Source: Myxococcales bacterium
GTDB taxonomy: Bacteria; Myxococcota_A; Polyangia; Polyangiales; Houyiibacteriaceae
Length of the DNA stretch: 64,000 bases
Direction: 5' to 3'
Assembly: GCA_029861865.1 (NCBI GenBank)
Contig: JAOTYL010000004.1
Location: 62,001-126,000 of the forward strand
Program-made: the position numbers and the translations under genes
Part shown: piece by piece, positions 1,753-38,953 of the stretch
Position numbering within the stretch: the stretch's first letter is position 1
Layout: every line of letters starts with the position of its first letter
Notes under the pieces: generated by a model
Seen by the model: only the letters and a program-made list of their open reading frames with translations
The model's database searches: none
Told to the model about the DNA's origin: nothing

Positions 1753-3600
1753 TTACGAGTCTGATTGAGCTTCGCCTTCGGCCTGCGCTTCGAGATCGAC
1801 GCTTCCGTACATGGCCTCGGCGATCTTGTAGGCGCTCAGCTCCAAAGTCTCGAGAGAGTCTCTGATCGCGATCGCGTCGCCGTTTTCTATGCATTGATGA
1901 AGCGTCTCGATGTCGGCTTCGACCTGCGCGACCACGTCTTCGGGGACCATCTCACGACATTCGGCGACTGCGCGCTCACTCGTGTAAAGCAGGGCCTCCG
2001 CCGCGTTTCGCAGCTCGGCGAGCTCACGGCGCTTTTCGTCTGTCGTCTTGTAGGCGTCAGCTTCTTCGATGATCCGCTTGATGTCTTCTTCGGACAGGCC
2101 GCTCGATGCGACGACTCGAATCGCCTGTTCGCGACTGGTCCCAAGGTCCTTGGCTGAAACGTTGACCACTCCATCAGCGTCGATGTCGAAGGTCACTTCG
2201 ATCTCGGGCACTCCGCGGGGCGCTGGGAGGATCGGCGCCAGCTCGAACTTGGCCAACGACTTGTTGTCCTCGCTCATCTCACGCTCCCCTTGGAGCACGT
2301 GAATCGGTACGAAGCTTTGATTGTCGACGCTTGTCGTGAAGATTTCGCGGGCGCGAGTCGGAACCGTGGTGTTCCGTGGGATGAGCTTGTGAAAGACACC
2401 ACCGCCGGTTTCGACACCCAGACTGAGCGGAGTCACGTCGAGAAGAAGCATTTCTTCCACCTCGCCCGCGAGCGCCGCCCCTTGCAACGCAGCGCCCATC
2501 GCGACGACTTCGTCCGGATTGACGCGCTTGTAAGGAGCTTTTCCGAAAAAGTCCGACACTTTGGACTGGACCATCGGCATCCGGGTCTGACCACCGACCA
2601 GGAGGATTTCGTCGATCTCCTCCCTCTTGATACCCGCATCGGTCAGGGCTTGCCCGCACGGTCCGAGTGTTCGGTCGACGATCTCGGAGACGAGTATTTC
2701 GAGCTCACTTCGCTTGAGCTTGGTTTCCAGATGCTTGGGCCCAGTCTCGTCCGATGCGATGAAAGGCAGGTTGATCTCGGTTTCGAGCGAGGAGGACAGC
2801 TCGTGCTTTGCTTTTTCCGCTTGTTCTTTCAAGCGCTGAAGAGCCACACGGTCGTCCCGCAAATCGATGCCACTACTCTTTTGGAATCGACTCGCGAGCT
2901 CTTCGACCAACGCGTTGTCGATGTCTTCGCCGCCGAGATGCGTGTCGCCAGCGGTCGATTTCACGCTAAAGACGCCATTTGCGATCTCGAGGATCGAAAT
3001 ATCGAACGTGCCGCCCCCCAAGTCGTAGACAGCAACGCGCTTTCCTTCTTTTTCCTCGAACCCGTAGGCCAATGCGGCGGCCGTCGGCTCGTTGATGATC
3101 CGGCGCACCTCGAGCCCGGCGATCTTGCCGGCAGCGATCGTGGCGGAGCGTTGCGCGTCATTGAAGTAAGCGGGCACCGTGACGATGGCGTCTGTGACGT
3201 CCTCCCCGAGGAACGACTCCGCAACCTCACGCATCTTCTCGAGCACCATCGCGGAGATTTCCGGCGGCGAGTAGCGCTTGTCCTCGATTTGAACCCAGGC
3301 GTCCCCCCGTTCGCTTTCGACGACGCGGTAGGGCGCCAAGCGAGCGTGCTTTTGTGCTTGCTCCGAGTCGAAAGACAAGCCCATCAGCCGCTTGATCGCG
3401 AAGACCGTGCTTTCGGGATGCGTCACGCCTTGACGCTTGGCGACGCTTCCGACGCGGCGCTCACCATCCTTGGCGAACGATACGACTGAAGGGGTCGTAC
3501 GGCTGCCTTCGGGGTTCGGAATCACCCGCGGCTCGCCATTATCGACAAATGCCACGCAAGAGTTGGTCGTACCCAGATCGATCCCGATGATCTTCCCCAT
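1753..3600 (-). CDS. dnaK: Hsp70 chaperone DnaK
   Basis: ATP-dependent cytoplasmic chaperone acting with GrpE and a J-protein. The 615 residues hold the nucleotide-binding domain from [13 protein letters not shown] (residues 5-17) through the second phosphate loop [12 protein letters not shown] (about 192-203) and [12 protein letters not shown] (about 332-343), then the substrate-binding domain with [14 protein letters not shown] (about 382-395) and a helical lid. The C-terminal tail is acidic and short (ends AQSDS) and lacks a clear EEVD-like end, as is common in bacteria. The start ATG has AGGGCGAG just upstream. The order hrcA-grpE-dnaK on one strand is the classical class I heat-shock arrangement; dnaJ is not adjacent. 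A truncated RegB-like frame follows after 1 nt. Confidence 0.97.
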
Positions 3601-26403: not shown

Positions 26404-26463
26404 CAGTGTCAGTGTCAGTGCCAGCGCCAGTGCCAGTGTCAGCGCCAGTGTCAGCGACAGTGT
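26404..26463. repeat. Degenerate hexamer array CAGYGY (10 units)
   Basis: Ten consecutive hexamers: CAGTGT, CAGTGT, CAGTGC, CAGCGC, CAGTGC, CAGTGT, CAGCGC, CAGTGT, CAGCGA, CAGTGT. The array fills the whole 62-nt gap between two convergent stop codons (26403 and 26466). The complement, RCRCTG, recurs at 31360-31437 and in shorter pieces at 31.28, 38.51, 38.72 and 38.94 kb. Confidence 0.9.
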
Positions 26464-26465
26464 CG

Positions 26466-30800: not shown

Positions 30801-31152
30801 GATCATCGACTACGTCTTCCGCGTGCTCGGGGTCGAGTACTTGAAGCAGTACGACTTCGCTCAGGTGCCCCCGAAAGAGGAGCAAGAAGAGCTCCAGAAC
30901 CCAACGGACGTCGCGGCGGTGCACCGCCTCGAAGGCTCCACACCAAGTGAGCCTCCTCCGGAGATCGAGCCTGCCGAGCAGGTCACGTTCGGCTTCGACG
31001 ATAAAGCCGGCGCGCAACCCAGTCCTCTCGACCAACAACTCGGCGAGATGATGGGCGATGCACCGATGTGCGACAAGTGCGGGCACATCACGGTGCGCAA
31101 TGGGGCCTGTTACAAGTGCCTGAACTGCGGCAACTCCATGGGCTGCTCCTGA
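27877..31152 (+). CDS. nrdJ: Class II (adenosylcobalamin-dependent) ribonucleotide reductase NrdJ
   Basis: Makes deoxyribonucleotides independently of oxygen, using a B12 radical. The 1091-residue protein has the ten-stranded barrel with the substrate-reducing cysteine in HPQCSACF (about 191-198), NPCSEYMF and DNSACNLASI (about 399-416; thiyl Cys plus partner), and APTGTIGLLMDCDTTGIE (about 595-612). The C-terminus ends in a cysteine-rich zinc-ribbon-like tail (CDKCG, CYKCLNCG), about 1065-1091, typical of long NrdJ. Start GTG 27877 has GGAGG six bases upstream; ATG 27898 is an alternative. The stop codon lies inside the left arm of a long palindrome. No nrdR or other reductase subunit is adjacent. 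Confidence 0.96.
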   Translation: MALETRGMTSNLEIEGARRAEVSQKAGGLSVERQLTEPNESPLDTVEYVLRDSQITNSDGSVVFELKGAEVPEGWSQLATDIAVSKYFRKAGIHGDKNRGEKSVRELVYRVAHSIREAGEGLGGYFADAKAAETFEAELSHLLIHQKAAFNSPVWFNCGLYQRYGIEGSGGNYAWHPEQDVIFQTDTAYEHPQCSACFIQAVDDDLMAIYDLIKNEARLFKYGSGTGTNFSKIRGKQEKLSGGGTSSGLMSFLEVLDRAAGATKSGGTTRRAAKMVCLDMDHPEIVDFIEWKVREEKKARALIEAGYDADFNGDAYHTVSGQNSNNSLRVTDEFMKALETDGEWKTTFRTTGEVSDTYRARELWRKIAQAAWGCADPGVQYDTTINDWHTCPNTDRINASNPCSEYMFLDNSACNLASINLSKFLDQEGGFDIEGYRQAIRVLIIAMDILVDYASYPTQPIAKNSHDYRPLGLGYANLGTLLMQLGIPYDSDEGRTICAALTSILCGHAYATSAELAATKGPFAGFQRNRQPMLRVMGKHREAAYRVNEVGGPGMTNGEPTACPPELMDAAHEDWDLACKLGEMYGYRNSQTTVLAPTGTIGLLMDCDTTGIEPDFALVKFKKLAGGGYFKIVNQSVPNALERLGYTAAQVTDIVSYVTGTNTFTGAPHFGRKALLDKGVTERELEKAESALRGVFDVGSALAPWVIGTEAYDRLAIPSDVYNKPGFHLLRYWGVSDKEVGEINDVVIGRMTVEGAPHLRAEHLPVFDCANRCGKIGERFIEPMAHIHMMAAAQPFLSGAISKTVNLPADSTVEDVEQIYKEGWKLGLKAIALYRDGSKSSQPLNTVDDSNGEEETQGVAQALEAPVREWLTPPPTRRHRLPKKRRGFTQEARIGGHKVFLRTGEYEDGSLGEIFIDMHKEGAAFRSLMNCFAISVSMGLQHGVPLDAYVRQFTFTRFEPQGIVEGHPNIKFSTSIIDYVFRVLGVEYLKQYDFAQVPPKEEQEELQNPTDVAAVHRLEGSTPSEPPPEIEPAEQVTFGFDDKAGAQPSPLDQQLGEMMGDAPMCDKCGHITVRNGACYKCLNCGNSMGCS

Positions 31153-31274
31153 CGGGGCCCAGGCACGCCGTTCGGCGGCTTACCTCCTCGAAGCTCCGCT
31201 GCGAAATACGTTCGTATTCCTCACTCCGCTCCTGCGGGGGCGCTCGCCGATCGACGCACCTGAGCCCCGTCAGG
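31148..31274. repeat. Long imperfect palindromic element after nrdJ
   Basis: The left arm begins CCTGACGGGGCCCAGGCACG (31148-31167); the reverse complement of the right arm (ending 31274) reads CCTGACGGGGCTCAGGTGCG, 17 of 20 identical, and similarity continues inward (CCGTTCGGCG against CGATCGGCG). The centre has AATACG-TT-CGTATT near 31205-31218. The left arm includes the nrdJ stop codon TGA. A hexamer-type stretch (31277-31306) follows. As RNA this would be a stable hairpin and might end or protect the nrdJ transcript. Confidence 0.7.
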
Positions 31275-31276
31275 AC

Positions 31277-31306: not shown

Positions 31307-31346
31307 TTCTCGAGGAGTAGGTGCCGTGGTCCGAGTCACCGGTTGA
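31305..31346. repeat. Small palindromic element, short form
   Basis: Left end TTCTCGAGGAGTAGGTG (31307-31323) and right end CCGAGTCACCGGTTGA (31331-31346) enclose only 7 nt. The same two ends border a 152-nt element at 38791-38942. GGTG and CACC pair at the tips. Hexamer arrays lie on both sides. Confidence 0.65.
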
Positions 31347-38504: not shown

Positions 38505-38526
38505 AGCGCCAGTGGCACTGACGCTA
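38505..38526. repeat. Short hexamer stretch upstream of bioA
   Basis: GCGCCAGTGGCACTGACGCT matches the RCRCTG family over about three units (GCACTG, ACGCT). It borders the left arm of the palindrome starting at 38533. Confidence 0.45.
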
Positions 38527-38532
38527 CATACC

Positions 38533-38700
38533 GGTGAACCGCGGTGCGGCGCGCAGCACGCCCTCGCCCGCTCAGACATCCTCGGCGGGGGTGTTAGAAA
38601 ACGGTGTCGAAGCCCTCTAGGTGGCGAGCGTCGGAGTGATGGGTTGGCGCCTGCGGAACTCGCGTTCGAGGACATGCCGCGCGCCGCACTCCGGTTCACC
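38533..38700. repeat. Palindromic element with 25-bp imperfect terminal inverted repeats
   Basis: The left arm (38533-38557) starts GGTGAACCGCGGTGCGGCG; the reverse complement of the right arm (38676-38700) starts GGTGAACCGGAGTGCGGCG. 22 of 25 positions agree. The interior of 118 nt has no open gene. The tips share GGTGA/TCACC with the neighbouring element at 38791-38942. Hexamer stretches lie outside both arms. This is miniature-transposon-like architecture without a transposase. Confidence 0.7.
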
Positions 38701-38716
38701 CACTTCGCCAGAAACA

Positions 38717-38790
38717 CGGACACTGGCGCCCTGTAGAGCCGACGCTGTCAGTGGCACGGCCGCCGACACTGGCACCGACGCTCACCCTGT
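38717..38790. repeat. Degenerate hexamer array between two palindromic elements
   Basis: Contains ACACTG GCGCCC, ACGCTG TCAGTG GCACGG, ACACTG GCACCG ACGCTC ACCCTG with interruptions, the same RCRCTG unit as at 26404 and 31360. Confidence 0.55.
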
Positions 38791-38942
38791 TTTCGAGGAG
38801 TAGGTGACTCGGGCCGCGGCGCGGGATGGGTAGCACAGCGGTGGGGAGGAGCCCGCGTCAAGATCCATACTCATCGCAAAGGGCGACCGGGGCCCCGCCG
38901 CGAGCACACCCGTCCCGTGCCGCGGCCCGAGTCACCGATTGA
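38791..38942. repeat. Palindromic element with perfect 18-bp inverted repeats, long form
   Basis: GGTGACTCGGGCCGCGGC (38804-38821) and GCCGCGGCCCGAGTCACC (38919-38936) are exact reverse complements separated by 97 nt. The outer ends TTTTCGAGGAGTAGGTG and CCGAGTCACCGATTGA match the ends of the 42-nt element at 31305-31346, so these are a long and a deleted form of one repeat. No gene is visible inside. Confidence 0.75.
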
Positions 38943-38953
38943 AGCTGACGCTG

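Follow-up and report, generated by a model that had tools for sequence, protein, structure and literature searches.

The 466-nt gap between ftsK and bioA in the window analyzed here, 64,000 nucleotides of a Myxococcales bacterium genome, contains two long imperfect palindromes that we consider fairly likely to be two distinct mobile palindromic repeats, non-autonomous and of the ERIC/BIME kind, located at a pre-existing hexamer array behind ftsK (Table 1). Since they are positioned at arrays of a simple six-letter repeat immediately downstream of genes, and since the same sites look different in sister species, the palindromes are probably small mobile DNA hairpins that belong to a family not described before. 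Both families are dispersed in the genome, comparison of sites between genomes supports their mobility, and we infer an enzyme that moves them and any role that they may have behind genes.

The initial annotation described both palindromes, with GGTGA/TCACC tips, and these features are real. The arms of element 1 (38533-38571 and 38662-38700) are 39 nt each and 82% complementary; those of element 2 (38803-38846 and 38893-38936) are 44 nt each and 80% complementary, with their outermost 18 bp perfectly paired, as had been claimed. An exact 15-bp inverted repeat within 300 nt occurs nowhere in the window except at element 2, and first-order Markov controls contained no such repeat in 28 of 30 cases and one in the remaining 2 of 30. 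Folding as single-stranded DNA gave z = -5.6 for element 2 and z = -2.1 for element 1. The hexamer stretches are also genuine (CASTGNCRSYGNC at one mismatch, 83 matches in the window versus 25 ± 6 expected), but they do not lie mainly on the outer sides of the elements, where they had been placed. Read in the direction of ftsK, the order is ftsK stop codon, hexamer remnant and head 2, element 2, tail 2, decayed hexamers, tail 1, element 1, head 1, hexamer remnant, and bioA, such that most hexamers lie between the elements, the tails point inward, and only short remnants (~38508-38524 and ~38942-38953) are found outside the pair. The arrangement of element 2, array and inverted element 1 recurs at G000:C18:208835-209226. 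A piece of another recurring palindromic module, built around GCGTCGGCTYTACGGGGTGCC (L284; L182), is present between the elements at 38733-38747, and also in the ftsK-bioA gap of the sister genome G018.

Table 1. Features in and around the ftsK-bioA gap and at two other sites in the window.
Feature	Position	Strand	Description and evidence
Hexamer array without palindrome	26404..26464	+	Directly behind a stop codon; sequence and pattern
Stub of composite	31320..31340	-	21-nt hairpin, tail 31307-31319, head from 31341, hexamers on both sides; head/tail patterns
bioA	start 38487	-	
Head 1 (ACATACC)	38526..38532	+	ATACC end common to other core-1 copies of the same subtype
Element 1 (core 1)	38533..38700	+	168-nt imperfect palindrome; inverted repeat, 11 further places in the genome, arm covariation
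Tail 1 (CACTTCGCCAGAAACACGG, variant of TACTTCGCGAGAACAC)	38701..38719	+	Aligned copies
Decayed hexamer array	38716..38787	.	Between elements 1 and 2; hexamer matches
Tail 2 (TACTCCTCGAAAACA)	38788..38802	-	Genome pattern search
Element 2 (core 2)	38803..38936	- (head-to-tail direction)	134-nt imperfect palindrome; inverted repeat, ~16 further places, genus-wide core, covarying arms
Head 2 with hexamer remnant	38937..38953	-	Directly behind the ftsK stop codon; alignment of the gap with relatives
ftsK	end 38954	-	

Sequence searches of the whole genome, as the initial annotation had recommended, identified 11 further places for element 1 (above 60 bits, mostly 77-88% identical) and about 16 for element 2 (some of them partial; most long ones 85-91% identical), so the possibility that the elements have no further copies is rejected. 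The proposal of a single family holds for the arm tips and flank context, which are common to both, but the interiors are unrelated and the copy sets separate, making two families. In a typical copy, a stop codon is followed by the head TCTGCGTCAACC, an imperfect palindrome of 134-168 nt, the tail TACTCCTCGAGAACA, and an array of (CAGYGN)n; in the 19 copies with clear ends, the succession is TCTGCGTCAACC, palindrome, TACTCCTCGARAACA and (CAGYGN)n. In 16 of these 19 copies, a hexamer run is found no more than 60 nt away on the tail side, and in one no more than 50 nt away on the head side; of 1066 bins of 60 nt in the window, 22 contain such a run. One core-1 subtype has the head ATACC, the tail TACTTCGCGAGAAC and an array in the opposite orientation. 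Cores, heads, tails and arrays, along with another downstream module, thus occur in varied intergenic combinations, as in a BIME-like mosaic. A further core type may be represented elsewhere in the window by a 129-nt palindrome (31147-31275; 31-nt arms, 84% complementary), which begins at the stop codon of a class II ribonucleotide reductase gene and has a hexamer array behind it.

The initial annotation took the array as the shared flank of one repeat family; it proved to be a separate, genus-wide feature. Its unit has four fixed and two nearly free positions, and a strict four-hexamer pattern has 1059 forward matches in this genome versus 16 for the reversed control. Among the 18 other genus members searched, 17 also have more matches to this pattern than to its control; in other genera of the family the excess is only weak. 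At the ftsK-bioA gap itself, hexamers are present without a palindrome in five relatives (G018, G009, G004, G007 and G016), and at this locus they are therefore probably older than the elements.

The flanks of 18 copies were used to locate the corresponding sites in G018, and most were located. The two genomes differ at the same sites by apparent absence, deletion, interior inversion or presence of a different core. Where this genome has core 1, G018 has a shortened core 2 at two sites (L007 and L010); where this genome has core 2, G018 has a third core of ~150 nt at two others (L032 and L034). At three sites in G018 (L008, L037 and L042) the head is joined to the tail with no core (GTCACCTACTCC or a close variant). 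The initial annotation had suggested looking for such empty sites in related strains; joined ends do exist, but they can be read either as deletions between GTCA repeats or as pre-insertion sites. Insertion of element 1 as a unit is best supported by a nested copy at G000:C6:202669, where core 1, preceded by CCACC and followed by TGCTCC, takes the place of GG within the conserved GGGATGGGCAGCAC of a copy of core 2. The G018 counterpart is an uninterrupted core-2 copy whose interior is in the opposite orientation. No target duplication is visible at this one clean insertion, and GTCA at socket ends is ambiguous as a target duplication. The annotated description of the elements as MITE-like, lacking a visible transposase and a clear target duplication, is supported. 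At L340 in G018, a core-2 interior is positioned between wholly different, equally complementary arms (GGTGTGCTGCGCGGGC / GCCCGCGCAGCACACC), and arms and interior can therefore be exchanged independently.

Against the mobile-repeat interpretation, the core swaps at the same sites could be products of gene conversion, the emptied sites have two possible readings, the clean insertion is a single event, and the Y1 transposase family is absent from this genome. Alternatively, and in our judgment rather improbably, the cores are no longer mobile, and what we see are old dispersed repeats shaped by template switching, slippage and gene conversion. Emptied sites that join at GTCA repeats and the interior inversion at one locus fit this alternative, as does the ability of template switching during replication to maintain complementary hairpin arms (PMC8794818). 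The nested core-1 insertion with its uninterrupted sister copy argues against it, as do the several relatives with hexamer sites that have no palindrome.

Covariation of the arms is strong in both families. The alignment of core 2 (42 sequences) has 92% of cells paired and two-sided change in 15 of 37 pairs, with 79 two-sided-change cells versus 21.6 ± 3.5 in shuffles, and that of core 1 (13 sequences) has 91% paired and two-sided change in 12 of 26 pairs, with 32 such cells versus 9.1 ± 2.8; the structures were written from alignment members, which favors them over slid versions (slid registers of core 2 pair at 35-51%), and related copies are not independent. By a codon-usage score applied to 31 copies in two genomes, 23 have the head pointing toward the 3' end of a gene, often at a distance of 1-26 nt from its stop, and 2 have gene starts on both sides, although this placement is rough (the ftsK copy itself was mis-scored) and copies at orthologous sites do not count as independent. 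An excess of TAG stops at heads (11 of 17 counted by hand, compared with 12 of 44 genes in the window; Fisher p = 0.009) was noted post hoc and is not relied on. Both the covariation and the placement would be expected if the palindromes were kept mainly as RNA hairpins at 3' ends, selected for structure as transcript stabilizers or terminators. We regard this explanation as unlikely. Covariation indicates a maintained palindrome and not necessarily a selected RNA, because template switching can also keep arms complementary; passive repeats show the same placement behind genes; and presence, core type and intactness vary between sister genomes at the same genes. No T-run of the kind expected of an intrinsic terminator follows the stems, which instead have TACTCC, TACTTC or TACG-type tails. 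A search for a known RNA family in Rfam returned no match at the gathering score, and at E <= 5 only spurious microRNA and lncRNA models.

The finding of different cores at four orthologous sites and of joined ends only at three could also reflect site-specific exchange, in which array ends carry a fixed docking site, the head/tail socket, where a recombinase inserts and replaces unrelated palindromic cores as hairpin cassettes. We consider this quite improbable: genus members without cores show no head/tail sockets beyond chance-level tail matches, the nested copy sits outside a socket, and the recombinase involved is a putative one. A broader version, a hairpin-cassette system in which cores with unrelated interiors are either inserted or exchanged by a putative recombinase at a fixed docking site marking one end of the degenerate hexamer array, seems only slightly less doubtful; its cores would probably move as folded single strands.

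A relationship to GTAG-type REP/REPIN elements moved by a RAYT (Y1) transposase is very unlikely. GTAG directly precedes the palindrome on one strand in this genome, and location behind genes resembles that of REPs (PMC3733652), but GTAG does not adjoin the stem in several relatives, the units are several times longer than the 20-40 bp of REPs (134-168 nt), and the genome lacks a Y1 transposase, although control genomes gave a signal in the same search. REP units are of GTAG and CGTC types and lie behind genes, and REPtrons may be lost in some species (PMC3733652). We give next to no credence to a retroelement whose reverse-transcribed 3' tail is the array, even though the array is at one constant end and variable in length and the genome encodes one reverse transcriptase, since relatives have ftsK-bioA hexamers without the element and the enzyme is of the UG4 type, at a locus with no head, tail or array and unlinked to the palindromes. 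The UG4-type gene (L375; G000:C6, around 2949-3413) lies near a contig start, beside a relic of a TraI-like relaxase.

If the palindromes are mobile repeats, as we favor, a putative enzyme acting in trans would move short units, each consisting of the palindrome and a few nucleotides on each side, with no target duplication. Afterwards, slippage between GTCA repeats would delete cores, and template switching or gene conversion would equalize arms, flip interiors and perhaps swap cores. Transcribed at gene 3' ends, the units could form strong hairpins with a putative role as RNA.

The elements share features with several described systems. ERIC and YPAL of enterobacteria are about 127-167 nt, imperfectly palindromic over their whole length, intergenic and dispersed, and are not known to have a transposase of their own. 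The palindromes described here resemble them by length and shape only, as long imperfect palindromes that are intergenic and dispersed; they differ in belonging to another phylum, in showing no evident sequence relation and no TA duplication, and in docking at hexamer arrays with several interchangeable cores at one site. With MITEs they share short, non-coding, multi-copy units having inverted ends, and similar ends around unrelated interiors; in contrast to MITEs, the one clean insertion lacks a target duplication, and neither an autonomous partner nor a copy with a gene between the element ends was found among the retrieved loci. Integron attC sites, like these elements, have hairpin arms with conserved mismatches on either side of a variable middle; the elements differ in having no RYYYAAC / GTTRRRY end boxes and no cassettes, their ends being CTGCGTCAACC and TACTCC. 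As in BIMEs and the GTAG and CGTC REPs (PMC3733652), the palindromic units occur together with other modules, both downstream of genes and in the space that separates convergent genes.

Among 84,980 species genomes, the invariant core-2 motif was found in 85 stretches. Of 80 loci listed, 69 come from Myxococcales, Deltaproteobacteria and related MAGs that form a group including SG8_38, and the other 11 are scattered single matches; by this search, the motif is almost confined to one myxobacterial lineage, SG8-38. Judging by these neighbors, the genome that contains the window would also be a member of GTDB genus SG8-38. Matches in other families of the order (G034 and G036), and short ones in G003 and G008, fall in coding-like sequence and look like chance. 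Relatives have the same core-2 interior with other arms (GGAGAACGGC/GCCGTTCTCC) and other tails, sometimes with another downstream module in place of the hexamers, and we therefore call the elements mosaic. Literature searches did not turn up any account of such repeats from this lineage.

Most of what is known about long palindromic repeats comes from a few cultured groups. In the uncultured lineage studied here, the same sockets hold several core types, nearly every genus member examined has hexamer arrays, and since filled, swapped and emptied sites are present in sister genomes, insertion, palindrome deletion and template switching should be separable by comparison. Several metagenome contigs of the lineage (L298, L309, L334, L337, L238 and L246) end at or inside these palindromes, and fragmented assemblies therefore probably undercount copies. 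At L032, L045 and L276, a near-identical inverted repeat (GATTTCCTTTCCGAGCG...CGCTCGGAAAGGAAATC) follows the arrays, ahead of a small gene (start MGLIVQQKAL) that is apparently duplicated in the genome.
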